Source: Puniceicoccaceae bacterium (lineage in GTDB: Bacteria > Verrucomicrobiota > Verrucomicrobiia > Opitutales > JAFGAQ01). From it: a DNA stretch of 64,000 bases. How positions within the stretch are numbered: position 1 is the first letter of the stretch; each line of letters opens with the position of its first letter. The translations under genes and the position numbers were made by a program. Under the pieces are notes generated by a model. That model made no database searches. It had not been told where the DNA came from and worked only from the letters and a program-made list of their open reading frames with translations. The stretch lies in contig JANQOQ010000004.1 in assembly GCA_028285755.1 (NCBI GenBank), forward strand, positions 198,720 through 262,719, given 5' to 3'. Below, one piece after another: positions 6,683-43,994 of this stretch.

Positions 6683-8596
6683 CTACTGGATGCTTTCAGG
6701 ACCACCGTCCGCTTCTACCCGTTCGATTTCTGACTCGGGTTGAGCAATTTCATAGTCGCTTTTCCAAAGCGACTCATTCGCCTCGGTGATGCGATCACGA
6801 TGGAGTTTCTCTACCTTGCGGTCATAAGTATAGATGCCGTTCATTTCGCTCTCAAGGTCAGTCCACTGGGTATATACGGCCCCGGATAACGCATCCCTGC
6901 GCTTAAACTCGTGGAGCATTTCCACAAAACGTTCATACTCCTCGGTCGCGGCATCAATACCATCGTAGTTAAAGTGAACGTAGTCTCCCTCATCTTCATC
7001 CGGGTTCCATACGTGCCCCTCGATGATGTAGCCAATCGCTCCATACTCACCATTAACAACCGCACGATCCGTAGTCGGGTAAGGATTCGTGGGGGGTCTG
7101 TAATGGTGGTTATCTTTGATGTGGCCCACCTGATAGTCCAGATCCGGCTCACCGGCATCAATACCGCTATTACCCGTAACCAGACGTGAAGTATCGAGCT
7201 CCATAACCCACTCGGTGAGTCGCTTCACATCATAAGCGCCCCAGTGCTCATTGAAGACGACCCAATTGACAATGCTGGGGTGATTCCAGAAATCACGCAC
7301 CATTTGCGAGAGCTCTATCTCAAATTGCGCTTTTTCATCATCCGTGCGCGCATTAAAGGTGCTCGGCATATCCTGCCATACGAGCAGCCCGATCTTATCA
7401 CACCAGTAATACCAGCGTTGCGGCTCGATTTTGATGTGCTTGCGGGTCATGTTATAGCCCCAGGCCTTCGTTTGCTCCACATCCCATTTAAGCGCCTCAT
7501 CCGTGGGTGCGGTAAAGAGTCCATCCGGCCAGTATCCCTGATCCAGTGGCCCCATGTGAAAAATAAACTTATTATTCAGGAACATCTTCTTGATCGGGCC
7601 CATTACCCGTCCACGGCGTTCGTCAATGTAAGTGGTATCCTTAATATCGATTTTGCGCATACCAAAGTAGCTATCTACAGTATCGATAATTTTTCCGTCC
7701 GGGTTGATCAATCGCAGCTCGAGATCATACAAGTAAGGGTCTTCCGGCCACCACAGGCGTGCATTCTCCACTTTAACGACAAACTCCTTCGACAGCTCCC
7801 CCTGTCCTTTTGAGAGCACCTTGCCATCTGCCTTAACGATGGCCTCAACCGTCCAATCCGCCATGTAGACATCTGCATTTACATTGAGGCGTAGTAAACC
7901 GAGATCGATATCGGGAGTCGCCTTGAAATTCACGATGCGCTCTTCGGGCACGGGCTCGATCCAGACCGTCTGCCAGATACCTGAAACCGGCGAGTAGGTG
8001 TATCTGCCGGAATCTTCAAAACGCCGATCCGACTGCTTGCCAACAGCGATGGCCGTATCGGTCCCGGGATCAAATACGCGAATGACGATCGTATTCGGCT
8101 CATCAAAGCTGACCGCATGGGTTATTTCGAGCTCGAAGGGGTCAAAGCCACCCCGGTGCTCACCCACGTATTCTCCGTTCACATAGACAGTCGTCTCCCA
8201 GTCCACAGCTCCGAATTGCAACATCAGGCGTTGCCCTTCCCAACTGGCGGGCAATTCAAAGGAACGTCTATACCAGGCGGTCTTACTGTCAAAATGCTCA
8301 CGAATGCCCGATAGTGCAGATTGCCAGGGGAAAGGCACCAGGATTTCACGCTTCAGCGTTTGCTCATGAGGTGGCCTCTCACCTACCTCTGCAATTTGAA
8401 ACTCCCAAACCCCGTTGAGGTTCATCCATTCATCCCTCACCATGACCGGGCGTGGATATTCAGGTAAAGGGTTCTCCGGATCGACTTCGGAGGCCCAAGG
8501 CGTCTGGATCGTGACATCTGCCATTTCCCAGGCACTGAGAGGATTCAAAAGGATGCAAAGCAACAAAGCATGCGCGAGCACAGATAAGTATTTCAT
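6683..8596 (-). CDS. Secreted GH2-family glycosidase
   Basis: A 637-aa GH2 enzyme from the ATG at 8596; an upstream in-frame ATG at 8635 would give an untypical N-terminus, while the chosen start gives a signal peptide ending near LSAWE. The order is sugar-binding jelly roll (MNLNGVWEF, WYRRSFELP), Ig-like domain, then TIM barrel. WVVFNEHWG supplies the acid/base Glu450 and NGEYGAIGY the nucleophile Glu517. At 637 aa it is shorter than LacZ and close to beta-glucuronidase or exo-beta-galactosidase types. It is first in an operon with GH43. A TTTACTGTAAA palindrome lies 78 bp upstream of the start. Likely an exo-beta-galactosidase, beta-glucuronidase or alpha-L-arabinopyranosidase. Confidence 0.9.
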   Translation of the reverse strand: MKYLSVLAHALLLCILLNPLSAWEMADVTIQTPWASEVDPENPLPEYPRPVMVRDEWMNLNGVWEFQIAEVGERPPHEQTLKREILVPFPWQSALSGIREHFDSKTAWYRRSFELPASWEGQRLMLQFGAVDWETTVYVNGEYVGEHRGGFDPFELEITHAVSFDEPNTIVIRVFDPGTDTAIAVGKQSDRRFEDSGRYTYSPVSGIWQTVWIEPVPEERIVNFKATPDIDLGLLRLNVNADVYMADWTVEAIVKADGKVLSKGQGELSKEFVVKVENARLWWPEDPYLYDLELRLINPDGKIIDTVDSYFGMRKIDIKDTTYIDERRGRVMGPIKKMFLNNKFIFHMGPLDQGYWPDGLFTAPTDEALKWDVEQTKAWGYNMTRKHIKIEPQRWYYWCDKIGLLVWQDMPSTFNARTDDEKAQFEIELSQMVRDFWNHPSIVNWVVFNEHWGAYDVKRLTEWVMELDTSRLVTGNSGIDAGEPDLDYQVGHIKDNHHYRPPTNPYPTTDRAVVNGEYGAIGYIIEGHVWNPDEDEGDYVHFNYDGIDAATEEYERFVEMLHEFKRRDALSGAVYTQWTDLESEMNGIYTYDRKVEKLHRDRITEANESLWKSDYEIAQPESEIERVEADGGPESIQ

Positions 8597-8673
8597 AGGT
8601 ATCGTAACTAAATTCGCTGAAAGCAGAGTCTCCATACTTGGGTGCCCGGGGGAGCGTTTAAAGGGCAGAGCAC

Positions 8674-9618: not shown

Positions 9619-9720
9619 TCTGTGAGTTGCGGGTAAGATTCGGTGCTTACTAGCTTAATGCAATTCAAGATAGTAGCTGCAATTCGTTTAGCTACATACC
9701 CATGTATTAACCTTAGCACC

Positions 9721-10611
9721 ATGAAATTACTTACCCTACTCTCCGCGCTGTTTATTTCGATCGGCGCAATTGCCCAGAATCCACTAATGGTGGGTGATCG
9801 TTCGTTTTACGGCGCAGATCCCTCTGCACTCTATACCTCCGATGGCAGGCTTTTTATGTTCCCCACCACGGATAACTTGGTCTGGGATAACCAGGTGGGC
9901 TGGAGCGTCTACTCTTCCGAAGACGGCGTACACTGGAAAGACCATGGTCTCATTTTCGATAATGAAATGTCCGGCTGGGGCGTAAACAATGCCTGGGCAC
10001 CGGATATTACCGAAAAGAACGGTAAGTTTTACTTTTACTACTATTTTCGCAACAGCGGACCTGACGGAGGTGTGGGTGTAGCAATCGCTGATAAGCCGGA
10101 GGGACCCTACAGGGAAGCTCTGGGCCACCGCCTGTTAAAGGGGCATGACCCGGCGATTTTCAACGATGATGATGGGCAATCTTACCTGTTTATCCAGGAT
10201 AAGGCTTATATCCTCGGCGATGATATGATCAGCATCAAGGAAGGTCCCATCAATCTCGGCCTTGAATATCGCCCTGAGAAATTTGAAGCCGCCTATGTCA
10301 TCAAGCACAAAGACACCTATTACTTCACGATCGCTCGTGCATGGAACAATCTGATCTACTATACTGCGAAAAATGTACTCGGGCCTTACACCTTTGTCGG
10401 TGAATTTATGGAACCTTATGGCGGTAATAATCATCACTCCATCGTGAATATTAAGGGTCAATGGGTCATTTTCCATCACGAGTGGGTCAAGGACAAACCC
10501 GGCCATGAAGGCCACCAACGCCGCATCCGTGCCGAGTATTTACACTTCAACGAAGATGGCACTATAAAGATGGTGAAACCCACTGACCAAGGGATCACTC
10601 TGGATCTCTAG
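9721..10611 (+). CDS. Secreted GH43-family glycosidase
   Basis: A 296-aa single-domain GH43 propeller, starting at the ATG that begins a clean signal peptide (cleavage after IGAIAQ). An upstream in-frame start at 9643 would add 26 residues before that peptide and is less likely. The three catalytic carboxylates are readable: Asp33 in YGADPSAL (base), Asp143 in GHDPAIF (pKa modulator) and Glu189 in KFEAAYV (acid). WAPD at 92-95 is typical of the family. The protein is near the minimal size for GH43 arabinofuranosidases, arabinanases and galactosidases. The gene stands alone, convergent with GH27, with a strong hairpin between them. Likely substrate: arabinose- or galactose-containing side chains. 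Confidence 0.88.
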   Translation: MKLLTLLSALFISIGAIAQNPLMVGDRSFYGADPSALYTSDGRLFMFPTTDNLVWDNQVGWSVYSSEDGVHWKDHGLIFDNEMSGWGVNNAWAPDITEKNGKFYFYYYFRNSGPDGGVGVAIADKPEGPYREALGHRLLKGHDPAIFNDDDGQSYLFIQDKAYILGDDMISIKEGPINLGLEYRPEKFEAAYVIKHKDTYYFTIARAWNNLIYYTAKNVLGPYTFVGEFMEPYGGNNHHSIVNIKGQWVIFHHEWVKDKPGHEGHQRRIRAEYLHFNEDGTIKMVKPTDQGITLDL

Positions 10612-10664: not shown

Positions 10665-12068
10665 TCAGATCTCTGACATACGATAAATTTTAGAGCCGTG
10701 CGGTGGAAGCTCAACGGTAAACCGCTTCTCATAAGCGCCCAGGGTTTCCTTTGTCCACAAATCACGGATCAGGTATTTGCCCCGGTAGTGCTCAAGCTCG
10801 AATTCGAAGGTTACGGACTTCTTTTCCTCTGAGATGTTGAAGAGCGCAAAATACTTGTCGTTTGAATTCGGAATATCCGCGATCCAGATGACCTCGGTCT
10901 GATAAAAATCCCGATAGATCTGGCGACCGTTTTCGCTGTTCTGGTTTACTTCGAGCACTTCCTCATTCGTGAGCAGATCGAATGTGAAATCGGGCGATGA
11001 GAGCAAATCCGCACCGATCATCAGGGGTGAGCGTGCGATACACCACAGATTCATCAGCGTGTATTGCTCATCTTCAGTAAAATGCGTCATGCGCTCAGGG
11101 CCATGTGGGCGATCGTTCAGGCTTAATCGGCCAATGGGCAGCATATCGGCATCCGGCCAGTGCCCGGGGCCCGCAAAATTGGACCACGCGTTGATCAAAT
11201 CAAAATTGTGGCGCAAGTGCTCCCACTTGTCCCAAAAATCACCGGAGATCCGCCACAGGTTTGTGTGAGCCGAAACATGTTTGGCCGAGGAAAGAGGCGT
11301 TTCACCGGGCGAGAGGCTCAGTACCATGGGTCTGCCGCAGTTATCAATGGCATTACGGATGAGCTCAATCTCCCCCTTCCTGTAATCTCGCGCGGCAATG
11401 TCATCTACCTTCACATAATCGACTTCCCATTCAGCATACAGTTCGAACAATGAATCGTAATACTCCTGGGCTCCGGGCTTGGAAGCATCCACCCCAAACA
11501 TATGGTTGCTCCAATCGCAGGTGTCCCAGGGCTCACCGATATCACGGGCAGTGTATTCGGTGCCTTTGATGGGCAGGTCGTAATACCAGGCTACCCGGTG
11601 GATGCCGCGCATCAGGTGAATGCCAAACTTAAGGCCTTTACCATGCACGTAATCTGCAATCGGTTTAAAGCCTTTGCCCCCTGCCGATGAGGGGAAGCGC
11701 TCTACCGCCGGCAGTAGCCTGCCAAATTCATCGATAGTCGTATACTCCGGGTAAAGCGGCTCGCCATCTTCCTTGTAACGGATGTTACCATGCCCCCAGC
11801 GGCGATGGGTTTTCCAGTTTCCCGGCGCAGGATGCCACCAGATATAGTCGATGACTGCATATTCCCAGCCATAATCCTTAAGCCGCTCGGCCATGACGTC
11901 GACGTTTGCCTTGTAATCCGCCTCATTGATGCGCGAATCGTAGGCGTCGAAGCTGTTCCAGCCCATGGGTGGCTTTTGAGCCAGTTTGTATTTAGGATCG
12001 ATATGATCTGCGCACAAATTTAGCGCGCAAACTGCTAGCAGCAAGCAAGGAATCAGGGAGTATTTCAT
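10665..12068 (-). CDS. Secreted GH27 enzyme, candidate beta-L-arabinopyranosidase
   Basis: A 467-aa GH27 TIM-barrel enzyme with signal peptide (LLLAVCALNLCADH). KPPMGWNSFDAYD (32-44) is the family start signature, Asp222 in YVKVDD is the nucleophile and Asp277 in RISGD the acid/base. In alpha-galactosidases the strand-2 motif is DDCW, whose second Asp binds the sugar O4/O6; here it is Asp74-Tyr75 (VIDYIWW). Loss of that Asp is a feature of GH27 beta-L-arabinopyranosidases, whose substrate lacks C6. The start is ATG at 12068, because the longer frame begins at TTG inside a hairpin. It lies downstream of the mutarotase on the same strand. Alpha-galactosidase remains possible. Confidence 0.88.
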   Translation of the reverse strand: MKYSLIPCLLLAVCALNLCADHIDPKYKLAQKPPMGWNSFDAYDSRINEADYKANVDVMAERLKDYGWEYAVIDYIWWHPAPGNWKTHRRWGHGNIRYKEDGEPLYPEYTTIDEFGRLLPAVERFPSSAGGKGFKPIADYVHGKGLKFGIHLMRGIHRVAWYYDLPIKGTEYTARDIGEPWDTCDWSNHMFGVDASKPGAQEYYDSLFELYAEWEVDYVKVDDIAARDYRKGEIELIRNAIDNCGRPMVLSLSPGETPLSSAKHVSAHTNLWRISGDFWDKWEHLRHNFDLINAWSNFAGPGHWPDADMLPIGRLSLNDRPHGPERMTHFTEDEQYTLMNLWCIARSPLMIGADLLSSPDFTFDLLTNEEVLEVNQNSENGRQIYRDFYQTEVIWIADIPNSNDKYFALFNISEEKKSVTFEFELEHYRGKYLIRDLWTKETLGAYEKRFTVELPPHGSKIYRMSEI

Positions 12069-12070
12069 AA

Positions 12071-12103
12071 ACAAAATAAGGGGTGATTGTCCCCCTATTT
12101 TGT
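12071..12103 (-). other. Hairpin abutting the GH27 start codon
   Basis: Two 13-nt arms with one mismatch (ACAAAATAAGGGG at 12071-12083, CCCCCTATTTTGT at 12091-12103) and a 7-nt loop. The structure ends 2 nt before the GH27 ATG in the transcript. It sits in the 100-bp gap after the mutarotase gene. It may be an intercistronic terminator or attenuator, a stabiliser, or a block on ribosome access. Confidence 0.5.
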
Positions 12104-12168
12104 TCGAAGAAATATGGCTGCCAACGCCCCCCTACTTTTCAGTTGAGTGGCATGATGGCCCGAAGCAC

Positions 12169-13308
12169 TTATCGGGCAGTAAATTTGTAAATGGTGGTGG
12201 TTTCGTAAACTTCGCCTGGCTCCAGCACAATGGATGGGAAATTCGGCTGGTTGATGGAATCCGGGTAGTGCTGGGTTTCGAGGCAGAATCCGGTGCGCTT
12301 CTGATAAGCGATGCCCTTCTTGCCTACATTCGTGCCATCCAAAAAGTTGCCTACATAAAACTGCACGCCCGGTTCTTCCGTCAGAACCTCCATATAACGG
12401 CCTGACTCCGGCTCGTAAACTGTCGCTGCAAGAGTCATCCCCTGGCCACGTTTATTAAGCACCCAGTTGTGGTCATACCCACCGCCATATGCGATTTGCT
12501 CATCGTCAGCGTCTACACGATCCCCGATTGCAGTTGGTTGGGTAAAGTCAAAGGGAGTTCCGGCTACCGGTGTAATCTCTCCGGTTGGGATTAAGCCTGC
12601 GTCCACCGGAGTCATATTATCCGCGTTGAGCGTGACAATGTGATCCAGAATATCGCCATTCCCTTCTCCGCGAAGATTAAAGTAAGAGTGGTTGGTCAGG
12701 TTCACAGGGGTCGCCTTATCCGTAACGGCATGATACTCAATTTTCAACTCGTTAGCATTTGTAAGGGTATAGGTAACAGTCACTTCCAATGTTCCCGGAT
12801 AGCCCTCTTCTCCGTCCACACTAGTGTATTTGAGCTTAAGCTTCGATTCATTGTTCTCAATGTAGGCCTTTGCATCCCACAGCACTTTATCAAAACCGCG
12901 TGTGCCCCCATGCAGGTGGCAGGGAATTCCCCCGGGCGCATTATTGGTAACCAAGGAATAGTCTTCACCATTGAGTGAAAACTTGCCATCGGCGATACGA
13001 TTACCTACGCGGCCGATCAATGCTCCGAAATAGGGAGTCGCTTCCAAATACTCATCGATCGTGTTGTATCCCAATACGATGTCCTCGAAATGTCCGTTAC
13101 GATCCGGCGCAAACAGGCGGGTGACGATCCCCCCGTAGTTGGTGATCTCGGCAGTCATGCCGTTTTCATTTTTCAGCGTGTAGAGCGTGGCTTCTCTGCC
13201 ATCCTGATCGTTTCCAAAGGGCTTCATTTGTATCGTAGAAAAATTACCCGCCCACAATGCATGAGCAAGGAGAGCCTTTACAAGTAAAATGCGAATTAGG
13301 TGCGTCAT
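12169..13308 (-). CDS. galM: Exported aldose 1-epimerase (galactose/arabinose mutarotase)
   Basis: A 379-aa GalM-family protein that interconverts alpha and beta anomers of aldoses. All four residues of characterised GalM enzymes are visible: His in HLHGGTRGFD, His in TNHSYFNLRG, Asp in GGYDHNWVL and Glu in LETQHYPD. The start at 13308 gives a signal-peptide-like N-terminus (LLVKALLAHALWAGNF); an upstream Met would add 19 residues. L-arabinose matches D-galactose at C1-C5, and GalM enzymes commonly accept it, so this protein can feed anomers released by nearby GH27/GH43 enzymes. It is followed after 100 bp by GH27. Its promoter region is shared with the sulfatase at 13491 and contains a TTAACTGTAAA site. 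Confidence 0.9.
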   Translation of the reverse strand: MTHLIRILLVKALLAHALWAGNFSTIQMKPFGNDQDGREATLYTLKNENGMTAEITNYGGIVTRLFAPDRNGHFEDIVLGYNTIDEYLEATPYFGALIGRVGNRIADGKFSLNGEDYSLVTNNAPGGIPCHLHGGTRGFDKVLWDAKAYIENNESKLKLKYTSVDGEEGYPGTLEVTVTYTLTNANELKIEYHAVTDKATPVNLTNHSYFNLRGEGNGDILDHIVTLNADNMTPVDAGLIPTGEITPVAGTPFDFTQPTAIGDRVDADDEQIAYGGGYDHNWVLNKRGQGMTLAATVYEPESGRYMEVLTEEPGVQFYVGNFLDGTNVGKKGIAYQKRTGFCLETQHYPDSINQPNFPSIVLEPGEVYETTTIYKFTAR

Positions 13309-13432
13309 AGAATATAATAAGTTAAACAGGGGAAATGATTTAAGACTTATTACGTCTAAAATCATAAATCAATAATGCATTGAACTAGAATAAAATATGC
13401 AATCAAACAACTCGATAAGTCACCCGTATCCA

Positions 13433-13443
13433 TTAACTGTAAA
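13433..13443. promoter_or_regulatory. Operator-like site TTAACTGTAAA (site 2)
   Basis: One mismatch from the perfect palindrome TTTACTGTAAA. It sits between the divergent mutarotase-GH27 genes (minus) and a sulfatase (plus), 48 bp before the sulfatase ATG. The flanks (ATTAAC-T-GTAAAGC) match site 4 almost exactly. Confidence 0.6.
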
Positions 13444-13490
13444 GCTCAAATCTTCCTTACGTGCGCAAACACTCCACCCATATTAAGATT

Positions 13491-14894
13491 ATGCGTAAAA
13501 CCTGCTTTCTAGCTTTCGCCTGTCTGATCGTATGCGCATCGGGCTTTGCAAAGGACTCTCGTAAAAATGTGCTGCTGCTCATGGCCGATGATTTTAACCA
13601 CTGGCTCCCTAAGATCGGCTACTACCCGAGTGCGAAAACGCCGAATCTTGACCGACTCGCAGATCGCGGGGTGTTGTTTGCGGACGCTCAAAACTCCTCC
13701 CCGGTTTGTAACCCTTCGCGCAATGCCATTTTCTCGGGTTTACGCCCGGTCACCTCGGGAATCAGCGCTAATTCACATGGCTTCGTGCGAGAGCAGGAAG
13801 GTCTCGAGCATATCGTATCCCTCCATCAGCATTTCCTGAACAATGGCTACTACACCTACGGTGCAGGTAAACTCTGGCACCCGGGCCGTATGGGCGCACC
13901 GAATACTGATCCCGAGAACTGGACGGACATATACCGAGGCGGCACCGGCAGCCCCGGAGGTGACTATAACCGCTTTGAAAGCGGCTACCGGGGCTACAGC
14001 TGGAGCGGCGGAGAATTTAACCTCCAGGACGATGCGGCAGATACCATAATGGCTCATCATATCGCTGAGCTGATCGAAAATATGCAAGACGATCAGCCGT
14101 TTTTTATCGCGTGCGGTTTCTTTCGCCCTCACCTGCCCTGGCATGTGCATAAACGCTTCTGGGACCTATACGAAGAGGAGGATATCGTGATTCCTCAGGG
14201 ATATCGGGAGGATGATCTGGAAGATCTCGTCAAAAAACCGAACAATCGTGCCATCCATGAACAAATCACAGGTGAAGGGCTCTGGAAGCAGGGCATTCAT
14301 GCCTATCTAGCTAATTTAAGCTATGCTGACTACAATGTGAGCATCGTGCTCGATGCACTGGAAAACTCACCTTACGCTGAGAACACTATCGTGCTTTTCA
14401 TGGGGGACCACGGGTGGCACCTCGGTGAAAAGAATCGTTGGAGCAAACATGATGTATACGACCAGGCCAACCGCACTACCTTCATTATCTACGATCCATC
14501 CGCTAAGGGCAATGGGCAGATGTCCCGGAAGGTGGTTTCGCTTCAGGATATCTATCCGACGTTAATTCAATTGTGCGCGCTCCCTGACAACCCGCATGTT
14601 GAAGGCAATGACCTGAGCCCGCTCCTAAGCAACCCGAATGATCCCGATTGGGATAAGCCGGTGCTTATTTCTTATCAGGACATACACTACCTGAAAACCA
14701 ATGAATGGAAGTGGATACCCGACGGCGAGGCCAGTCAGCTGTATGATGTCGTGAATGACCCCTATGAGTGGAACAATCTATACGGTAAACCCGAGTATGC
14801 ACAGATCGCGGCCAAGCTGGACGCGATTGTCCAACGGGAGATCAGACGCGGGGAAGCCCTGCGTGTAAAGATAGCCTCAGAGCTTACCTTCTAG
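13491..14894 (+). CDS. Secreted S1-family sulfatase
   Basis: A 467-aa type I sulfatase that hydrolyses a sulfate ester using formylglycine made from Cys73 in VCNPSR. Metal-site Asp33-Asp34 lie in LLMADDF, and FMGDHGWHLGEK holds the C-terminal metal-binding Asp-His. The choline-sulfatase/iduronate-sulfatase-like features (WLPKIGYYPSAKTPN, FFRPHLPWH) set it apart from arylsulfatase-A types. The start is ATG at 13491, giving the signal peptide CLIVCASGFA; a GTG 30 bp upstream is less likely. The maturation enzyme is not in this window. It is divergent from the mutarotase and ends 5 bp from the convergent ara operon. Confidence 0.92.
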   Translation: MRKTCFLAFACLIVCASGFAKDSRKNVLLLMADDFNHWLPKIGYYPSAKTPNLDRLADRGVLFADAQNSSPVCNPSRNAIFSGLRPVTSGISANSHGFVREQEGLEHIVSLHQHFLNNGYYTYGAGKLWHPGRMGAPNTDPENWTDIYRGGTGSPGGDYNRFESGYRGYSWSGGEFNLQDDAADTIMAHHIAELIENMQDDQPFFIACGFFRPHLPWHVHKRFWDLYEEEDIVIPQGYREDDLEDLVKKPNNRAIHEQITGEGLWKQGIHAYLANLSYADYNVSIVLDALENSPYAENTIVLFMGDHGWHLGEKNRWSKHDVYDQANRTTFIIYDPSAKGNGQMSRKVVSLQDIYPTLIQLCALPDNPHVEGNDLSPLLSNPNDPDWDKPVLISYQDIHYLKTNEWKWIPDGEASQLYDVVNDPYEWNNLYGKPEYAQIAAKLDAIVQREIRRGEALRVKIASELTF

Positions 14895-14899
14895 ATTCC

Positions 14900-16318
14900 T
14901 TATTGCTCGAATTGAAATTTGAAACGATCCGAAGGAACTCTGGCATTCTCTAAAAGTGTTTTTGCTTTGGCCACCAGATCGGGGCGGTCGTAGGCCAGGT
15001 TACGTGTCTCACCGATGTCGTTTTCGAGATCGTAGATTTCAATCGCAGCTTCAAAGCCATAGCCATTTACGCCGTTGCGGACGGCTTTCCATTTACCCCA
15101 TCTAACGGCCTGGGCACCCTCCCGCTCCAAGAACTCCCAATAGAGATATTCGTGCCTGGGTTGCATTTTGCCCTTAAGCTCAGGAAGAAATGAGATTCCA
15201 TTCGTTTTTTCGGGTATCTCCACACCGGCAATTTCAGAAAAAGTCGGCAAATAATCCCAAAACGCGCTGATATGGTCACTGGTTCGCCCTGGTGCAATCG
15301 TGCCCGGCCAGTATGCCACGAAAGGCACGCGGATACCGCCTTCGTAGAGGTGGCGCTTCATACCCTGGAGTGGCCCATTCGTATCGAAAAACTCCTTCTG
15401 GTTGCCCCCCTCTTCATGCGGGCCGTTATCCGAGGTAAAAATAATCAGGGTATTATCATCGATCTCCAGTTCTTCAAGCAGAGCAATAATCTGGCCGATT
15501 CCGGCATCCATGCGCGTGACCATGGATGCATGGGCTTTCTGCACCAAAGGCCAATCCTTGTTTTCATAGGGGCCTAGATCCGGCACCTCCATGCCGTGCT
15601 CAGTGCCAGTGAACCAGAACTCATTATTCGCATGCGGGATGGTCACGGACAGGTATAGCATGAACGGGCCTTCGCTGTTCTCTTCGATCCATCGAAGAGA
15701 GTCCTCTACCAGTAAATCATGGGAGTATTCCTTGCGGTCCTCAGGGAGCGTATAGGTGCCTTTACCTTTCGAATATCCGCGATCGGCGATCTGAACCTTG
15801 TTTTTCAGCATCTCTTTTTTGCCGTTTCGCCAAAGATGTGAAGGATAGAAATTGTGCGCATCGATCTGGTGCATGTAGCCGTAGGAATAATCAAAGCCCT
15901 GCTTTTGAGGTTCCCCGCTGCTACCCACATTGCCGCTGTCCCATTTCCCAATAATGGCTGTGCGGTAGCCCGCCTTCTTCAGTTGTTTCGCAAAGGTGTG
16001 ATCTTCAGGTCTGAGCGGATAACTTCCGTTGCCTCTGATTCTAGCATGCCCTGTATGCAAACCGGTAAGCAGCGAACATCGTGATGGCGCACAAACCGTT
16101 GCCCCGGAATAGTGATCGGTAAAACGGATGCCCCCCTCAGCCATACGATCCAAATTGGGTGTCTGGATCATCGTTTGGCCAAAGCTACCAATTTCCCCGT
16201 AGCCCAGATCATCCGCGAGAACAAGGATGATATTCGGGGGTGTATCTTTCGCAAATGCAGAAGATAAAGCAAACAAGAGACTGATAATAGCTGATTTGAA
16301 AAGCAGGGTAAGTTTCAT
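14900..16318 (-). CDS. Secreted S1 sulfatase, arylsulfatase-A type
   Basis: A 472-aa sulfatase with signal peptide ending near SSAFAKD. Asp36-Asp37 (LADDLGYGEIG) bind calcium, and Cys76 in VCAPSR becomes formylglycine. TGLHTGHARIRGN, FTSDNGPHEEGG and MKRHLYEGGIRVPF are classical arylsulfatase/GalNAc-6-sulfatase motifs. This clearly differs from the iduronate-2-sulfatase-like paralogues elsewhere in the window, so a different sulfate position or linkage is likely. It is the last gene of the eight-gene araB-led operon, 12 bp after the preceding sulfatase. Exo-acting sulfatases of this type usually act on galactose- or hexosamine-containing glycans; here sulfated arabinose is an alternative. Confidence 0.93.
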   Translation of the reverse strand: MKLTLLFKSAIISLLFALSSAFAKDTPPNIILVLADDLGYGEIGSFGQTMIQTPNLDRMAEGGIRFTDHYSGATVCAPSRCSLLTGLHTGHARIRGNGSYPLRPEDHTFAKQLKKAGYRTAIIGKWDSGNVGSSGEPQKQGFDYSYGYMHQIDAHNFYPSHLWRNGKKEMLKNKVQIADRGYSKGKGTYTLPEDRKEYSHDLLVEDSLRWIEENSEGPFMLYLSVTIPHANNEFWFTGTEHGMEVPDLGPYENKDWPLVQKAHASMVTRMDAGIGQIIALLEELEIDDNTLIIFTSDNGPHEEGGNQKEFFDTNGPLQGMKRHLYEGGIRVPFVAYWPGTIAPGRTSDHISAFWDYLPTFSEIAGVEIPEKTNGISFLPELKGKMQPRHEYLYWEFLEREGAQAVRWGKWKAVRNGVNGYGFEAAIEIYDLENDIGETRNLAYDRPDLVAKAKTLLENARVPSDRFKFQFEQ

Positions 16319-16330
16319 AGTAAATGTAGG

Positions 16331-17947
16331 TTAAATTCCTTCCGGGAGTGCGGCTCGCCAGCCATTATACAGGAGCTCTCGCAGCATAGCTTCGGTTTTG
16401 GCATGTTCAGGTAAGCCCGCCAAATTGATGTGTTCATTGGGGTCTTCCTGTAAATCGTAGAGTTCCACGGCTCGTAGATTATCTTGGGTGAAATCGGGGG
16501 AGCGGTCACTACGCCACTCGCTGTAGCGATAACGCTCAGTGCGCACAGCCCTACCCAAACCTCCTATCGGGATCATCGAGTAAGCTGCTTTTTTCCATTT
16601 TTGACTGGGATTTTCCAGAAGTGGCAGGAGGCTCAGTCCTTCCAGATTATCCGGGGATTCTAAATCCCAAATATCGTAAAGTGTCGGTGCAAAATCCACG
16701 AGCTCCACGATACCTTCTGCTGCTGTTCCGTTGCCCTTAAGATCCGGCACGTAGATAATGAACGGCACGCGAGTCGATTGCTCGAATAGCGTAAATTTGC
16801 TCCACAAGCCATGCTCACCCAGATGGAACCCGTGATCCGATAAAAGAATAACAATGGTATTCCCAGCGAGTTTATTCTCTTCGAGTGCGGTCAACACCTC
16901 CCCGATTAGCGAATCGATATAAGAGGCAGTTGCATAATAGGCTGAGATTGCCTCACGCTGCCGTTGCTCCGTGGGGCCATATTCGGGGTAAAGGCCATTG
17001 AAAATATCGTAGTTGCTGCCATTGCGTTTCGCCACTGCAGGGATGTTGCGGTCTTTGCGGGCAGGTGCGTCTGTCAGCTCCATTTGCTCAGGCGGATACA
17101 GGTCTACAAATTCCTTAGGCGCTAGCAACGGCGTGTGCGGGGCGTAAAAACCCAGCGTCAGGCAAAATTGCTGCCCAGACTCGGCGAATCTTTCGATGAG
17201 ACTCACGGCGTGCTTCGAGATGCAACCGTCTTCCATTTCCTCAGCGCTCATCCCGCTGTCGCCGACTTGCTCCGCCATCAACTGCTGAAAAGGTTTGCGC
17301 AGTGGCCAGGTATTTTTCTCACCGGCGGCCAGGCGTATTTCGCGCTCCTCCCGCTTCTGGTGCAGGCGTGCGACCACCTTTTCATCCGGCAAAAACTTGT
17401 AAACCAGCTCGGCGTCTTCCATCACCTCTTCATGCGTCATGATCGATGCATGGACGCCCGCAAAATTCGCATCCGGGCGGTCATAGGCGTGGGTATAATA
17501 GATCTCATCAAACCCATCTATGAAACGGTAGGACTCCTCCCACTTATGCACAATTTTGCCACTCCCCACGATAATTGCGGATGGATTTTGCTGCAGAATA
17601 TCTGCATAAAAAGTTACCCCCTCCGGAATGGTAGCATCCATTTTGTCACCATTGCCGTAAACCCCAGTGCTATCCGGCCTCAATCCCGTGCCGAAGCTCG
17701 CACGCGAGGGATTGCATACGGGCCCCTGGCAATACGCACGGTTAAACTGAATGCCCCGGCTTGCAAGGCGATCCACATGAGGTGTCTGCACGACGGAATT
17801 ACCGTAGCATCCAACTGCTTCCGCAGACCAATCCTCGACACTCAGGACCAGGATATTCATACCCTTCGTGCGCTCCTGCAAACTCTCGGAATGGAGCAAA
17901 CTTGTTGAAACCAGGAGTAGACCTGCGATCAAATAGATATTTTTCAT
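16331..17947 (-). CDS. Secreted S1 sulfatase with Glu-Asp metal motif
   Basis: A 538-aa sulfatase with signal peptide (LIAGLLLVSTSLLHSES). Its ATG overlaps the stop of the GH27 gene as ATGA, which fixes the start and implies translational coupling; an earlier in-frame Met is rejected. Cys78 in VCNPSR is the formylglycine site. At the N-terminal metal site the usual Asp-Asp is Glu38-Asp39 (LSVEDWSAEAVG), a conservative but uncommon change. LLSDHGFHLGEHGLW retains the C-terminal metal Asp-His. It is longer than its paralogues through an insertion around residues 185-240. It sits in the araB-led operon, so it probably desulfates an arabinose-containing glycan. Confidence 0.92.
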   Translation of the reverse strand: MKNIYLIAGLLLVSTSLLHSESLQERTKGMNILVLSVEDWSAEAVGCYGNSVVQTPHVDRLASRGIQFNRAYCQGPVCNPSRASFGTGLRPDSTGVYGNGDKMDATIPEGVTFYADILQQNPSAIIVGSGKIVHKWEESYRFIDGFDEIYYTHAYDRPDANFAGVHASIMTHEEVMEDAELVYKFLPDEKVVARLHQKREEREIRLAAGEKNTWPLRKPFQQLMAEQVGDSGMSAEEMEDGCISKHAVSLIERFAESGQQFCLTLGFYAPHTPLLAPKEFVDLYPPEQMELTDAPARKDRNIPAVAKRNGSNYDIFNGLYPEYGPTEQRQREAISAYYATASYIDSLIGEVLTALEENKLAGNTIVILLSDHGFHLGEHGLWSKFTLFEQSTRVPFIIYVPDLKGNGTAAEGIVELVDFAPTLYDIWDLESPDNLEGLSLLPLLENPSQKWKKAAYSMIPIGGLGRAVRTERYRYSEWRSDRSPDFTQDNLRAVELYDLQEDPNEHINLAGLPEHAKTEAMLRELLYNGWRAALPEGI

Positions 17948-19245
17948 GCTATGCTTAGCTTGAAGAGACGAGCGCCATGTGCTGGCACATCGAAAGTGTA
18001 TTGTCCCTCGAAAGCCCCCACATCGGTTTGAGACCATAAGTCGCGGACAGCTGCAGATCCCACTAAACCAAAATCTTTATGGAATAATGTGTAGCTAGCA
18101 CTCAGATCGCCTAAATTAAATATTGCGACGTTCTTACCTCCATCAGAGGTATCAGAGCTCCAGGCCAACAAATCGCCTTTGCGTCCAAGTGGTTTTGGGC
18201 ATTGCCCTTGCTGATTCACCGCTAGTACCTCAGCATTCGAGATGAGCTTGAGAGTGTCTTCATCCGATCCAGGCAAGTGCCCGCCAAACATCAAAGGAGC
18301 CTTAAAAATGGACCACAACGTCATGAGTGTGGTTTGCTCGTTCGGAAGGAAATTAGTTTTTCGCTCTACACCGACTTCGCCGCGGATGCCGATTCTACCG
18401 AGAGGCAGCATATCCGGGTCGGGCCATGCGCCTTCGATGATGTAGGGAGCCCAAAGCTCGCACCGGGCAAACTGACGTTTCAAGGCTTCCCAATCGTCCC
18501 AAAAATCGGCCGATATGCGCCACATGTTGGCATGCTTGCGCAGGTGATTGGCATTACAGACCAATGCCGCACCCGGTGAGAGGCTTAAGACCATGGGTCT
18601 GCCGGTAGAGTCAATGGCTTTGCGAACTGCTTCGATTTCGTCGGTATGATACGGGTAAATTTGCCCGTCCCCGTCCCAGGAGTTGATATCATCGGCCTTC
18701 ACAAAATCGACCCCCCACTCTGCGTAGAGTGAAAATATGCTATTGTAATAGGACTGTCCGGCAGGCTCTGTCATCTTGATCCCAATATTATTAGCATACC
18801 AGAAGCAGCGATCGGCAGGTTGCGCGATCTGCTCACAGGTGGCATCCGTGCCCAGCACCGGGCATTGCTGATCGGCTGCCTGGAAGGGCATGCCCCGCAT
18901 GATATGGATACCAAACTTCAGGCCCAAACCGTGCACGTAATCCGCGAGCTTCTTAAAACCGCTCCCATCTGCTGAGCAGGGAAATTTCTTTGGGCACGGA
19001 ATTAGACGCCCATATTCATCAATGAGCTGCTCGAGGCCATATTTTTTGTAATTATGCACCGTAGCATCGGGTGCATACCAACCGAGATCGACCACGACAT
19101 ACTCCCAGCCATATTGCTTGAGGTTTGCCGCGATGTAGTCCGCATTATCCTTTATATCCTGTTCCGTAACGGAGACTCCGAAACAGTCCCAGCTATTCCA
19201 CCCCATGGGGGGTGTTTTTGCCCAATCTAAATGTGCTTCTCCCAT
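17944..19245 (-). CDS. Cytoplasmic GH27 enzyme, candidate beta-L-arabinopyranosidase
   Basis: A 433-aa GH27 enzyme beginning directly at the barrel (MGEAHLDWAKTPPMGWNSWD) with no signal peptide, so it should act in the cytoplasm. Asp185 in FVKADD is the nucleophile and Asp247 in RISAD the acid/base. The strand-2 alpha-galactosidase motif DDCW is replaced by Asp53-Leu54-Gly-Trp (VVVDLGWY), removing the Asp that recognises O4/O6. In the studied Geobacillus beta-L-arabinopyranosidase the same position is Ile. It lies between an SSS symporter and a sulfatase in the araBAD operon. The simplest reading is that it releases L-arabinose from imported oligosaccharides for AraA. Confidence 0.9.
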   Translation of the reverse strand: MGEAHLDWAKTPPMGWNSWDCFGVSVTEQDIKDNADYIAANLKQYGWEYVVVDLGWYAPDATVHNYKKYGLEQLIDEYGRLIPCPKKFPCSADGSGFKKLADYVHGLGLKFGIHIMRGMPFQAADQQCPVLGTDATCEQIAQPADRCFWYANNIGIKMTEPAGQSYYNSIFSLYAEWGVDFVKADDINSWDGDGQIYPYHTDEIEAVRKAIDSTGRPMVLSLSPGAALVCNANHLRKHANMWRISADFWDDWEALKRQFARCELWAPYIIEGAWPDPDMLPLGRIGIRGEVGVERKTNFLPNEQTTLMTLWSIFKAPLMFGGHLPGSDEDTLKLISNAEVLAVNQQGQCPKPLGRKGDLLAWSSDTSDGGKNVAIFNLGDLSASYTLFHKDFGLVGSAAVRDLWSQTDVGAFEGQYTFDVPAHGARLFKLSIA

Positions 19246-19260
19246 AAAATCCTAATATCG

Positions 19261-21078
19261 TCAGAGTATAATACTAAAGAGCGCGACAAAGAAGAACATA
19301 CCAACGACACAAGCCCCCCACCAGAGTAGTACGCTATTATACCATTTGTCACCCAAACCTTCGCCGAAGTTCATTTTGCTCCAGTTGAATGTAAGTCCGT
19401 CGCTCACCTGTTCCGGATTCGGATTTTTTGAAAGCAGGGTCGATACGATCAGCACCACCATGCAAACCAGCCAAACCGACATGCCCTGCATCACAAAGCT
19501 CATGAGCAAGTCAGGCAGCATACCCAGATGCTCGAGTATTTTGAGGATCGCTGCGAATACGAGGGCAACCACAGTCGCAAGCAAGGCATCAAAGCCACTT
19601 ACCTTTTTCCAGAGGGTACCCATCAGGAAGGTTGCCGAAAACGGGGGCGCAAAGAACACATAGAGCATCTGGATAAACCAGAAGAGATTCACACGCGTCA
19701 CCTTCGCCAGTAGGATCGACATGAGAATCGCCAATACCAGGATCACTACCCCGGCTACGCGACCTACCCACACTTCCTCACGCTCGGTGGTATTCTTATT
19801 AATAAAAGTCTTGTAGAAATCGAGGGTGAATACGGTAGAGGTCGAGTTAAGCACTGAACACACGGTTGACTGGATCGCACCAAAAAGTGCCGCCAATAAA
19901 ACCCCGGTCAGAAATACCGGGACCAGCTCCTGAATCATCACAATATAGGTCTTGTTCACCGCATCGCTCGAGTAGCTAAAGGCCGCTTTACTGATTTCGT
20001 CCTCGTCTCCGCTGGAGATGGCTTCGGGATTGATTTCTGCGATTTGCTCCGGGGTTGGGTGCAGCATATCAGGATTCATCGCAAAGAAGATCAAGCCGGG
20101 AATCACCACGATGAAGGGAAGCAGCAATTTCAAACCTGAGGCAAACACCATACCCATGCGCGCGTGATAAATATCCTTCGCCGCGAGCACTTTTTGGATC
20201 ATGTGCTGATTGATCGCCGTATACCACAGGCCAATATAGAAAAAGCTGAATACCCAGTGCACCCATGAGGTGAGATTGTGCTCCCAGGGCTGCAAAACGA
20301 GCAAGCGGTCATAAGGATCCCCCTCCTCCGCGCCATTAATTATATGCGGAACGGTGCGATCTACCCATTCCTTCGCCCAGCCAACCTCCGCGCGGTTGAC
20401 TTCGATCATGTTGGATACCCCTGCTAAAAGGCCTTCTCCGGCGCCGAGATGGACTAGCCCCAGGTAGGTGACACTCAATCCCCCGAATACCATAATGATG
20501 ATCGTCAACACATCCATGAGAGCAATGGACTTCAGTCCGCCCCAAATCGCCCAGAAACCGGACAGAATCGCGATCAGGATGATCGATAAAATGATGTCTA
20601 CTCCAAATAATTCCTGAAGCACCAGCGCACCCCCGTAAATTACCGGTCCGAGGAATGCCATGACATTCACAATCAATGTCACTGCAGCAAAGAGCGTGCG
20701 CATGGGCTTATTGAAGCGCTTCTCCAGAAACTCCGGCCCTGTATAGACCTTAGACGAGAGCAGGAACGGCACGTAAAGCCAGATCAGGAATGTAAAGGCA
20801 ACCACAGTACTCCACTCCCCGGTCGCCACACAGATTCCATAAATGACTGCTGCGCCGATTAAGCCGATAAAATGCTCAGTAGAGATATTCGCCGCGATGT
20901 AGGAGCTACCCACCACATACCAGGGTAAGCTGCGACCCGCCAGAAAGTAGTCTGCTGCGTCTTCCTTTTTCTTCTTACCGGCAATATAGCCAATGATGCT
21001 AAGCAGAATAAAATAGCCAAAGAAGGCTGCGATATCCTGCCAGGCAAGATCGAGGGTTCCAATTTGTGCGAGTATCAT
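19261..21078 (-). CDS. SSS-family sodium:solute symporter, probably for L-arabinose or its glycosides
   Basis: A 605-aa integral membrane protein of the SSS (SGLT-like) family with about 14-15 hydrophobic segments. YFLAGRSLPWYVVGSSYIAANISTE (read in two parts) is the TM1-2 signature, containing the AGRSLPW motif. GPEFLEKRFNKPMRTLF and the long NQHMIQKVLAAKD stretch are typical of galactose- and glucose-type members. It lies between the lipoprotein and GH27 genes in the ara operon (14-24 bp gaps). The context implies uptake of L-arabinose or short arabinosides liberated outside the cell. Sodium coupling is known for the family. Confidence 0.9.
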   Translation of the reverse strand: MILAQIGTLDLAWQDIAAFFGYFILLSIIGYIAGKKKKEDAADYFLAGRSLPWYVVGSSYIAANISTEHFIGLIGAAVIYGICVATGEWSTVVAFTFLIWLYVPFLLSSKVYTGPEFLEKRFNKPMRTLFAAVTLIVNVMAFLGPVIYGGALVLQELFGVDIILSIILIAILSGFWAIWGGLKSIALMDVLTIIIMVFGGLSVTYLGLVHLGAGEGLLAGVSNMIEVNRAEVGWAKEWVDRTVPHIINGAEEGDPYDRLLVLQPWEHNLTSWVHWVFSFFYIGLWYTAINQHMIQKVLAAKDIYHARMGMVFASGLKLLLPFIVVIPGLIFFAMNPDMLHPTPEQIAEINPEAISSGDEDEISKAAFSYSSDAVNKTYIVMIQELVPVFLTGVLLAALFGAIQSTVCSVLNSTSTVFTLDFYKTFINKNTTEREEVWVGRVAGVVILVLAILMSILLAKVTRVNLFWFIQMLYVFFAPPFSATFLMGTLWKKVSGFDALLATVVALVFAAILKILEHLGMLPDLLMSFVMQGMSVWLVCMVVLIVSTLLSKNPNPEQVSDGLTFNWSKMNFGEGLGDKWYNSVLLWWGACVVGMFFFVALFSIIL

Positions 21079-21101: not shown

Positions 21102-22322
21102 TCAGGGCTTTGTGAAAATGTCCCCGTCAGCGTTTAGAAGCTCAAATGAAGTCCCGGCTTTGCCATGGGTGTGACTATAGACCTCATTTTCAAATTCCAG
21201 AATTACAGGCCCATTGCTGTAAGGATTGTAAATTACTATACCTCCATCGAATTCGCGTTGATGCGCCCCATCCTCACGGAGATAGCCTTTAGCTTTTGGC
21301 ATACCGAGGGGGATATCCCAGAAGTCATACCAGTCGTGCATGTGATCCGGAGTCGGAAGGGGGTTCATGTCCCCATAGAGCACATAGCCGTTTGAGTGCG
21401 TAAGGCCAAGCGTAGTCGTTGCACGCATGCGTCGAAGGTCCTTTCGGTCTCCCCAGACTTCAAAAGCGTTAATGCGAGGCTCCAGGAACTCTACCTCGAA
21501 AAATTTAAGGGCCTTTTCCATCTGATCCCAGGTGCTGATATTACGCTGGGTCGGGACTCCCGGGCCATCCGGATTGCACTCCATAAACGAACCGTTGATG
21601 TAGTCTTTGTAAAGTTCACCTTTTTCGAGATCGTCGTGGATATTGACGATGATCAGGCCCGTATCGCCAATCGCCTCGCGCACTTTTTTGACAATGGGCA
21701 GATAGCCGCTCCAATCGAGCATCACCCCATCGTATACCCCGGACTCGATAGCTAGGCGGGATTGCCGTGCGATATTCTCGTGAAAGGCCTTGCTGTCACG
21801 ATCGATCAGGTAATACGGCTCGGGGCCACCCTGCCAACCTTCCGCGCGTGTGCCGTCATCATTGCGCCTCCAAAACTCGCTATCCTCGGGAAGGAAACTG
21901 CCGGGCGCATCCCGCCAGCGTACTTCGAGCAAGAAGATCATGTTTGGGTTCATTGCGAGCATCTTCTTGCGGTTATTGAGTGCGATCCCGTGGCTTTCCG
22001 GGGTAAACTCAGTAGCCAGTCCCCCATGCTCATGATTCCAGACGGCCCCTAAGACCAAATCCGTACCAAACCCCAGCATACTTACGGGTTCCTCCCAAAG
22101 CAGATCATGTTTGGCAGCCGCAACGAGTCGCTGATCATTGGTATCCAATGGATATTCCGGCATATCTATGGGGTTCCACGCCTGAAAAACGGAAGGAAAG
22201 TCCCGATCATCCGCTTTTTGTTGCAAAGACTTTTCGGGAGCCGGTTGGCAGCCGCTATAAAGGCTGGCTATCAAAACCAGAAATGCGAAGACTAAATGAG
22301 TTCGATTCTTAGAATATTTCAT
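21102..22322 (-). CDS. Exported putative TIM-barrel glycosidase, possible lipoprotein, unassigned
   Basis: A 406-aa protein with an N-terminal export signal ending in LYSGCQ, a possible lipobox although Tyr at -3 is unusual. The body reads as a beta/alpha barrel: MIFLLEVRWRD, YDGVMLDWSGYLP, LIIVNIHDDLEKG and RMRATTTLGLTHSNGYVLY fit successive strands. Asp in MLDWSG and carboxylates in GSFMECNPDG are candidate catalytic residues, resembling putative glycoside hydrolase-like families without assigned activity. I do not recognise a characterised family. It lies between araD and the SSS symporter, so a role in freeing or binding arabinosides at the cell surface or periplasm is reasonable. Confidence 0.7.
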   Translation of the reverse strand: MKYSKNRTHLVFAFLVLIASLYSGCQPAPEKSLQQKADDRDFPSVFQAWNPIDMPEYPLDTNDQRLVAAAKHDLLWEEPVSMLGFGTDLVLGAVWNHEHGGLATEFTPESHGIALNNRKKMLAMNPNMIFLLEVRWRDAPGSFLPEDSEFWRRNDDGTRAEGWQGGPEPYYLIDRDSKAFHENIARQSRLAIESGVYDGVMLDWSGYLPIVKKVREAIGDTGLIIVNIHDDLEKGELYKDYINGSFMECNPDGPGVPTQRNISTWDQMEKALKFFEVEFLEPRINAFEVWGDRKDLRRMRATTTLGLTHSNGYVLYGDMNPLPTPDHMHDWYDFWDIPLGMPKAKGYLREDGAHQREFDGGIVIYNPYSNGPVILEFENEVYSHTHGKAGTSFELLNADGDIFTKP

Positions 22323-22339: not shown

Positions 22340-23041
22340 TTATTGGGACTGCCCGTAGTAGGCATCTTCCCCATGCTTGCGGAAAAAGTGCTTTTTGAGG
22401 AGATAATCCGGTACGATATTCGGCTCCGGCATAATCGTAAGTGCCTTAATTGCCATATCCGCAACGATCTCGAGCGCCTGTGCGTTCTCTACGGCTTTCT
22501 TGCCATTGGTTCCCCATGTAAAGGGTCCATGATTTTGCACCAGCACTGCGGGGCATTCCATGGGCTCGCGCCCTTCAAAGGCTTCGATGATGACCTTGGC
22601 GGTCTCCCACTCGTATTCCCCCTCAACTTCGGCCTCCGTCATCACTCGGGTCACGGGCACGGGGCCATTGAAATAGTCGGAATGGGTAGTGCCCAAGCAG
22701 GGAATTTCTACACCCGCCTGTGCAAATGCGACCGCACAACGCGAATGCGTATGCACGACTGATCGCACCCCCTTTTCTCCAAATTCCTGATAAATGCGCC
22801 GGTGCGTCGGAGTGTCGGACGAGGGACGCAGTTCCCCTTCGATGATTTTGCCACTAATATGCAAAATAACCATGTCCTCGGGAGATAGCTGATCGTAAGG
22901 TACGCCTGAGGGCTTAATTGCAAAGACACCCGTTTGCGGATCAAAGACGCTCACATTTCCAAATGTGAGATCTACGAGCCCGGTTTTCGGGAGGCGCTTA
23001 TTCGCTTCGGTGCATTCTTCTCTAAGTGCTTGATAATGCAT
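22340..23041 (-). CDS. araD: L-ribulose-5-phosphate 4-epimerase
   Basis: A 233-aa class II aldolase/epimerase converting L-ribulose 5-phosphate to D-xylulose 5-phosphate, the last step of L-arabinose catabolism. TFGNVSVFD and KPSGVPYDQL bind the phosphate. SSDTPTHRRIY, HTHSRCAVAFAQ and the later NHGPFTWG supply the metal and catalytic region. The length is as for E. coli AraD (231 aa). It follows araA by 16 bp and precedes the lipoprotein gene by 17 bp. The ara context makes AraD far more likely than fuculose-phosphate aldolase. Confidence 0.96.
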   Translation of the reverse strand: MHYQALREECTEANKRLPKTGLVDLTFGNVSVFDPQTGVFAIKPSGVPYDQLSPEDMVILHISGKIIEGELRPSSDTPTHRRIYQEFGEKGVRSVVHTHSRCAVAFAQAGVEIPCLGTTHSDYFNGPVPVTRVMTEAEVEGEYEWETAKVIIEAFEGREPMECPAVLVQNHGPFTWGTNGKKAVENAQALEIVADMAIKALTIMPEPNIVPDYLLKKHFFRKHGEDAYYGQSQ

Positions 23042-23057
23042 AATCCAATATCAAAGG

Positions 23058-24548
23058 TTAGAATACGGACTCATTCCAGCGCAATTCCTGCTTGAGCGCA
23101 TGAAGCTCTGTTTGCTCATCAATCACAATGAGCTCCACCCCTGCCATCTCAGCAAAATCGGTTATTTGATCGATAGAAACCGAATAACTGAACGCAGTAT
23201 GGTGCGCCCCACCCGCCAATATCCAGGCAGCAGCGCCCTGCTTTAAATCGGGCTTAACATCCCACAACACCCGAGCCACGGGCAATTTCGGCAAGTCAAC
23301 CATGGGGGTGTGCGCCTCTACCTGATTCACCAGGAAGCGGAACCGATTGCCTAAATCCACCAGCGAGAAATTAATCGCGGGACCTGACTTTCCATCAAAA
23401 ACCAAACGCACCGGATCATCCTTACCACCGATACCCAGGGGGTGGATTTCACACTTGGGTTTTGCATTTGCGATGCTGGGGCAAATCTCAAGCATGTGTG
23501 AGCCGAGGCAAAGGGGCCCCGCAGGATCGAAATGATAGGTGTAATCCTCCATAAACGAAGTCCCTTTATCATTGCCTTTTGCCATGGTTTTGAGTGCGCG
23601 GACGATTGCCGCATGTTTCCAGTCTCCCTCTGCACCGAACCCGTAGCCATCAGCCATCAGGCGTTGGGTGGGAAGGCCCGGGAGCTGATTAAGCCCATGG
23701 AGGTCTTCAAAAGTGTCGGTGTAGGCGCTAAACCCACCCTGATCCAAAAATTTGCGAATACCGAGCTCTATTTGCGCCGCTTCGCGGAGACTGCCATGAC
23801 GATCGCCTCCGAGTTCGAGACCCGGCATAATGTCGTATGAATCTGCGTAGACTGCCACCAGGTCATCGATTTCACCTTGGGAAATCTCATTGATAACTCC
23901 TACGAGATCACCCACACCGTGCGTATTCACAGAGATGCCAAACACCATTTCGGCCTCTACCTTATCCCCGCAGGTTACGGCTACCTGTCTCATATTATCT
24001 CCAAAACGCACGATCTTGAGGCTTCTGAATTCATTCCACGCAACTGCGACTCGCGTCCAACTTGCAATCTCGCTGACCACTGTGGCGTCCTGCCAGTGCC
24101 CGACGACGACCTTACGATTAATGCGCATACGTGCGCAAATATGGCCAAACTCCCGCCCGCCATGCGCCGACTGGTTGAGGTTCATAAAATCCATGTCGAT
24201 GGAATCCCAGGGGATATCCTGATTAAACTGTGTATGCAGATGGCAAAACGGCTTGTGCAGGTGTGTCAGCCCCCGTATCCACATCTTCGCCGGGGAGAAA
24301 GTGTGCATCCAAAAGATAAGACCTACACAGTTGGCATCGTTATTCGCTCTCAGGCAAACCTCATCAATCGAGTCGGGTGTGGTCACGACTTCCTTAAAGA
24401 CGATATTTACCGGAATTCCTGCCTCAGCATTCAGTGAATCGGCAACGATTCTTGAATTTTCCGCGACTTTTTTGAGGGCTTCTTCTCCGTATAGGTGTTG
24501 GCTGCCCGTGACAAACCACACCTCAGAGAGTGGGTAGATTTTGTTCAT
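23058..24548 (-). CDS. araA: L-arabinose isomerase
   Basis: A 496-aa protein converting L-arabinose to L-ribulose, close to E. coli AraA in length (500 aa). [17 protein letters not shown] is the family N-terminus. [10 protein letters not shown] and GSHMLEICP carry the two metal-binding Glu residues, [19 protein letters not shown] the first His and GGAHHTAFS the second. It is cytoplasmic with Mn-type metal expected. It sits between araB (26-bp gap) and araD (16-bp gap). The motifs are complete, so the gene should be functional. Confidence 0.97.
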
Positions 24549-26275: not shown

Positions 26276-26321
26276 TTTGATAGAACTAATTAAAAATAAT
26301 ATTGAACAAACCCCTGACAGA

Positions 26322-26334
26322 CTTTACAGTAAAG
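26322..26334. promoter_or_regulatory. Operator-like palindrome CTTTACAGTAAAG (site 3)
   Basis: A perfect 13-bp palindrome around a central A, in the 61-bp region between araB and the LacI-type gene. It ends 2 bp before the regulator ATG, so binding there should block the regulator's own translation start region and could repress the divergent ara promoter. Core TTTACAGTAAA at 26323-26333. Confidence 0.75.
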
Positions 26335-26336
26335 CC

Positions 26337-43934: not shown

Positions 43935-43994
43935 GATAGGGCCATGGTTGCACAAAACTCGCGGGGCTGACAATCCCTTGAGCACAGCGGAAGC

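Follow-up and report, generated by a model that had tools for sequence, protein, structure and literature searches.

The window, by which we mean the whole 64-kb stretch of DNA analysed here, carries two genes for GH27 proteins, set among genes for nine sulfatases and other glycosidases and an araBAD gene set (Table 1). Pfam Melibiase_2 and Melibiase_C scored above cut-off in both GH27 proteins, fold matching revealed a TIM barrel and a C-terminal beta-sandwich in each, and the Pfam model detected no other GH27 protein in the genome; NCBIfam had no name for either. We refer to them as the Tyr and Leu enzymes, after the residue at a key position of the active-site motif. The initial annotation had given the coordinates and strands of both reading frames correctly. 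As judged by eye from the N-termini, Tyr enzymes begin with a signal peptide, which the Leu enzyme and its orthologs lack. This split between an exported and a cytoplasmic enzyme, like the conserved sulfatase context described below, was absent from that annotation.

The genes araB-araA-araD-GHL15-SSS-GH27(Leu)-sulfatase C-sulfatase B follow one another in this order, with gaps of 26, 16, 17, 23, 15, −4 and 12 nt. We infer that they form one tight operon, in which the Leu GH27 gene is co-transcribed. The Tyr GH27 gene lies 94 nt after the aldose epimerase gene, and a galactokinase gene is found elsewhere in the genome.

Table 1. Genes around the GH27 pair (window positions; percentages are amino acid identities to homologs in other genomes, L numbers denoting their loci)
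Feature	Position	Strand	Remarks
GH43	5121..6665	−	
GH2-type protein	6683..8635	−	70% homolog near DFCW GH27 in L118
GH43	9643..10611	+	
GH27, Tyr type (DYIW)	10665..12074	−	469 aa from TTG, 467 from ATG; hydrophobic signal-like N-terminus, predicted exported
Aldose 1-epimerase (GalM family)	12169..13365	−	72% ortholog beside Tyr-type GH27 in L115
Sulfatase A	13461..14894	+	54% homolog beside DYIW GH27 in L215
Sulfatase B	14900..16318	−	last in araB operon; homologs in L115 (75%), L101 and L213 (45–47%)
Sulfatase C	16331..17947	−	likely ATG at 17947, 4-nt overlap with GH27 stop
GH27, Leu type (DLGW)	17944..19245	−	433 aa; without signal peptide, predicted cytoplasmic
SSS-family sodium/solute symporter	19261..21078	−	57% orthologs beside GH27(Leu) in L191, L217
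GHL15-type putative glycosidase (GHL21102)	21102..22322	−	lipoprotein-like N-terminus
araD, L-ribulose-5-phosphate 4-epimerase	22340..23041	−	
araA, L-arabinose isomerase	23058..24548	−	sole copy found in genome
araB, ribulokinase	24575..26275	−	first in operon
LacI-family regulator	26265..27401	+	divergent from araB
Sulfatase D	27489..28991	+	
Sulfatase E	32504..33991	+	
Sulfatase F	37394..38803	−	45–46% homologs beside Tyr-type GH27 in L190, L213
Sulfatase G	38928..40388	+	
Sulfatase H	40455..41867	+	
Sulfatase I	45577..47037	+	

The second Asp of the DDxW motif of alpha-galactosidases had been reported missing from both enzymes, with nucleophile and acid/base Asp retained, and alignment to Abp, the Geobacillus enzyme, bears this out. 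The motif reads DYIW in the Tyr enzyme (residues 74–77 counted from the ATG at codon 3, or 76–79 from the listed TTG) and DLGW in the Leu enzyme (residues 53–56), and Ile67 of Abp aligns with the Tyr and the Leu that replace the Asp. The nucleophile column, D197 in Abp, holds D224 of the Tyr enzyme (TTG numbering) and D185 of the Leu enzyme; Abp D255, taken as the acid/base residue, aligns with D279 and D247, respectively. The PDB entries 4nxk, the Abp-D197A mutant, and 4nx0 differ at exactly the nucleophile column.

Abp is the closest solved relative of both proteins, at ∼49% identity. A phmmer search of the PDB returned Abp first for both (428 bits for the Tyr enzyme, 460 bits for the Leu enzyme) and BH1870 (3cc1) second, while rice alpha-galactosidase scored 116 and 126 bits. 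A fold search with AlphaFold models (mean pLDDT 86.7 for the Tyr enzyme and 87.8 for the Leu enzyme) likewise found Abp best, with Z scores of 57.5 and 55.2 and an rmsd of 1.4 Å, as compared with a Z score of 42 for rice alpha-galactosidase. Alignment showed that the insertions of Abp relative to the rice enzyme are present in both; these presumably correspond to loops L6–L8 of Group VI (McKee and Brumer). The Ile that is the hallmark of Group VI is missing from the key position of either enzyme.

Among ∼150 Abp-like GH27 proteins of public genomes, taken from the best matches listed, the key position was Ile in 117 and Tyr, Phe, Leu, His, Met, Ala or Gln in the rest; none had Asp, Glu or Cys. 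These frequencies describe the best matches of an 80-locus scan and of sampled genome sets rather than the whole family. Remoter GH27 proteins in the same genome sets read DDxW. As Asp was never found at this position in the Abp-like proteins and is found there in the remoter ones, its loss from the window enzymes is not a matter of chance. In a quick tree, in which branch support was given by SH-aLRT only, neither window enzyme fell inside the Ile clade that holds Abp and BH1870. With a support of 100, the Tyr enzyme clustered with its DYIW/DYVW counterparts from G004, Draconibacterium sediminis, G518 and G619 and with a sister group reading DFCW; the Leu enzyme grouped with two DLAW enzymes, from Draconibacterium and G518, with a support of 98. 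DHQW proteins, in which His occupies the key position, were seen among the Abp-like GH27 of three genomes of one Verrucomicrobiota genus (L199, L207 and L208 of G121, G166 and G346), which also encode DIQW paralogs.

beta-L-Arabinopyranose (beta-L-Arap) shares its configuration at C1 to C4 with alpha-D-galactose. In GH27 the key position is the main, though not the sole, determinant of specificity between the two: Asp is found in galactosidases, Ile or Glu in arabinopyranosidases and Cys in dual enzymes, and mutations there alter the preference while slowing the reaction (PMC4598101). A precedent for Tyr is Arabidopsis APSE, an enzyme specific for beta-L-Arap (PMC5853685). Our literature search found no GH27 enzyme with Leu at the key position and a tested activity, and no assayed member of the Tyr or Leu sublineage. 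The assignment of both proteins as beta-L-arabinopyranosidases, proposed in the initial annotation from this residue, stands as a probable one: proximity to Abp in sequence and fold, the residue at the key position and the araBAD operon favour it, while the placement outside the Ile clade, the fact that the residue alone is not decisive and the presence of candidate replacement Asp residues keep it from being settled. We think that each enzyme is likely to have this activity.

The rest of the active-site surroundings have changed little in the two lineages. At alignment columns more than 85% conserved in the Ile group, the only uniform change in the Leu lineage is that from Ile to Leu itself; the Tyr lineage shows three, Ile to Tyr, Trp to Phe42 and Val to Ile49, as if the added bulk were offset elsewhere by a smaller side chain. 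The search by alignment for an Asp that could replace the missing one yielded D46 and D184 in the Tyr enzyme and D145 in the Leu enzyme. Conserved within their lineages, D184 and D145 each precede a conserved Cys by two residues, at a column that is mostly Ser in the Ile group; D46 is conserved in the Tyr lineage and is Gly in the Ile group. From their places in other loops, these residues might contact the sugar instead. Another candidate, D60 of the Leu enzyme, was dropped, as it is Gly in orthologs. Tyr-type enzymes also share an insertion of ∼15 residues right after the motif with a (K/R)RxGHPx(I/L) pattern, a possible sulfate-binding loop; in the model of the Tyr enzyme, pLDDT falls below 50 over residues 80–110, which include it.

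The lipoprotein encoded upstream of the symporter scored 17.2 bits with Pfam GHL15 and its G619 counterpart 19.2 bits, both below the cut-off of 27, while two Bacteroidota orthologs reached 32.4 and 31.4 bits. GHL15 orthologs (53–57% identity) adjoin an SSS symporter in three other loci (L191, L217 and L259). A PDB profile search linked the protein weakly to GH114-type entries (E 6e-6), with the invariant Asp and Glu of GHL15 aligned to their active-site residues. GH114 and GH191 are endo-alpha-1,4-galactosaminidases, whose known substrate is a polymer of galactosamine (PMC12054363). They appear as distant kin that share catalytic-type residues with the lipoprotein, although the E-value is modest and the polymer they cut is a different one. 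Such kinship would be compatible with cleavage by the GHL15 protein within a 4-linked beta-L-arabinopyranan.

GHL15, symporter and GH27(Leu) form a conserved module common to Verrucomicrobiota and Bacteroidota. The three genes also stand side by side in this order in Draconibacterium sediminis (L189–L191) and G518 (L213, L217), with identities of 54–57%, 57% and 51–52%, respectively, and near them lie a DYIW/DYVW GH27 (59%) and homologs of sulfatases B and F (45–46%); the Draconibacterium locus also has SusC/SusD pairs and a hybrid two-component regulator. In G619 (L259 670–2700, − strand) GHL15-SSS is followed by a melibiase (PF02065)-like protein that is not GH27. A family relative, G004, has the order sulfatase B (75%)-GalM (72%)-GH27(Tyr) (77%)-Sde182-sulfatases. 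GHL15 was not found in six relatives including G004, whose assembly is in 470 pieces; an empty result there shows little. Among 344 Bacteroidota genomes, GHL15 occurred in three (G422, G518 and G619), exactly those carrying DYIW/DYVW GH27, a coincidence expected by chance in about 1 in 6.7 million draws by our own arithmetic, the genomes not being independent. Of the seven DYIW/DYVW/DLAW genes found beyond the window, six had a sulfatase within ∼10 kb, as did 2 of the 117 genes of Ile type; the genes counted are related to each other, and contigs are often short.

On balance we favour the explanation that both window enzymes are retaining exo-beta-L-arabinopyranosidases of the Abp-like clade that serve one sulfated-glycan pathway in two compartments. 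Tyr or Leu would occupy the room that alpha-galactosidases, with their second Asp, keep for the C6 hydroxyl, so that a C6 hydroxymethyl would clash and arabinopyranose would fit. Outside the cytoplasm, sulfatases and glycosidases, including the GHL15 lipoprotein and the Tyr-type GH27, would trim a sulfated glycan containing beta-L-Arap; the symporter would bring in small products, which the cytoplasmic Leu-type GH27 would split, and AraA, AraB and AraD would consume the L-arabinose released. Motifs, homology, predicted fold, gene layout and synteny across the two phyla are direct results; activity, compartment, transported sugar and glycan are what we infer. The glycan would be rich in beta-L-Arap, and a sulfated pyranosic beta-L-arabinan of green algae is its most likely identity. 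In several green-algal orders, sulfated polymers are built on backbones of 3- or 4-linked beta-L-Arap, and Codium, Cladophora, Caulerpa and their relatives among the green algae are known sources of sulfated pyranosic beta-L-arabinans (PMC7550628). Pectin or seagrass pectin, considered on account of GH28-like proteins, was rejected as a poorer fit to the araBAD-GH27 operon and the sulfatases.

The main competing view of the substrate retains the beta-L-arabinopyranosidase activities and has them act on a sulfated arabinogalactan protein or galactan that bears beta-L-Arap as nothing more than a terminal cap, a system described in Bacteroides plebeius. Loci of that species that combine GH2, GH27 and GH43 enzymes with sulfatases deal with sulfated arabinogalactan from Codium fragile and from wine (PMC8406133), and the window encodes two GH43 proteins and one of GH2 type. 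Nevertheless, nine sulfatases and two different GH27 enzymes exceed the needs of terminal caps, no GH145 or GH105 signature was found in the window proteins scanned, and the araBAD operon indicates arabinose as a major product. We consider this substrate unlikely. The operon would also serve arabinofuranose from the GH43 enzymes, a point against the explanation preferred here.

Somewhat less probable still is that one or both enzymes have alpha-D-galactosides as their main substrates, or accept both sugars, contacts to C4 and C6 being restored by an Asp of another loop. The acidic residues conserved by lineage would suit this, as would the dual Cys variants elsewhere in GH27 (PMC4598101). The galactokinase gene and the melibiase-like protein in the same slot of G619 also speak for it and, together with a G004 that has a Tyr enzyme and sulfatases and no detected GHL15, weigh against the pathway preferred here. 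Against it, Abp, CpArap27 and APSE, all of them assayed, combine a bulky key residue with preference for Arap (PMC4598101, PMC5853685), and the Leu GH27 shares an operon with araBAD. We see little likelihood that the true target is another galacto- or arabino-configured residue lacking a free C6 hydroxymethyl, such as a still-sulfated arabinopyranose that the Tyr enzyme would recognize through its basic loop. The post-motif insertion of the Tyr lineage and the nearby sulfatases are in keeping with this idea; however, the insertion has low model confidence and the loop cannot be placed in the model, and the Leu enzyme has no such loop.

The arabinopyranosidase reading preferred here can be set against characterized enzymes. 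Abp of Geobacillus stearothermophilus T6 (4nx0, 4nxk, 4nzf) shares fold, catalytic Asp pair and insertions with both window proteins, but it has Ile67 and belongs to the Ile clade, whereas the window enzymes have Tyr and Leu and the Tyr enzyme is predicted to be exported and has the extra basic loop. CpArap27 of Chitinophaga pinensis and GH27 Group VI resemble the pair in their Abp-like clade and non-Asp key position, yet the group is described by its Ile (PMC4598101). Arabidopsis APSE and rice OsAPSE have Tyr there, as does the Tyr enzyme, but are plant enzymes, likened to it by this residue (PMC5853685). The nearest described system is that of B. plebeius on sulfated arabinogalactan: PUL5, PUL7 and PUL13 have predicted GH27-type enzymes for arabinogalactan, PUL13 with sulfatases, and the target is a green-algal sulfated glycan. 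The part of that account available describes neither a GHL15-symporter-GH27(Leu) module nor an araBAD operon in these loci, which are likened here by description (PMC8406133).

The gene cluster suggests a so far undescribed route for using sulfated arabinose polymers, for example those of green seaweeds. A full-text search that combined sulfated arabinan, sulfatase and glycoside hydrolase found no paper, most subscription journals lying outside its coverage. We offer as a speculation that this is the first recognized pathway for sulfated pyranosic beta-L-arabinans, shared by Verrucomicrobiota and Bacteroidota, in which GHL15 would be an endo-acting or oligosaccharide-releasing beta-L-arabinopyranase, distantly akin to the alpha-1,4-galactosaminidases, whose substrate has an identical configuration from C1 to C4; the symporter would import its products for the cytoplasmic Leu GH27, and the exported Tyr GH27, with its basic loop, would work on the sulfated polymer. 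If true, it would provide a handful of candidate genes for the breakdown of these anticoagulant arabinans, add Leu, through two GH27 lineages, to the residues known for the specificity switch (Ile, Glu and Tyr), and offer a first clue to what GHL15 proteins do. For further work, it is the module conserved across the two phyla that merits attention.

Three further proteins of the window deserve mention. Sulfatase D has CMASR where most window sulfatases have CxPSR, a difference that may bear on formylglycine maturation. Positions 41868–43985 (− strand) encode a 705-aa protein with no Pfam match, which has a 50% homolog (L248 7467–9611) on the contig of the G518 GH27 genes. The 499-aa product of 44066–45565 (+ strand) has no confident Pfam match, the weak one being to beta-helix, and has weak homologs in L190, L213, L249 and L251, near the same loci.
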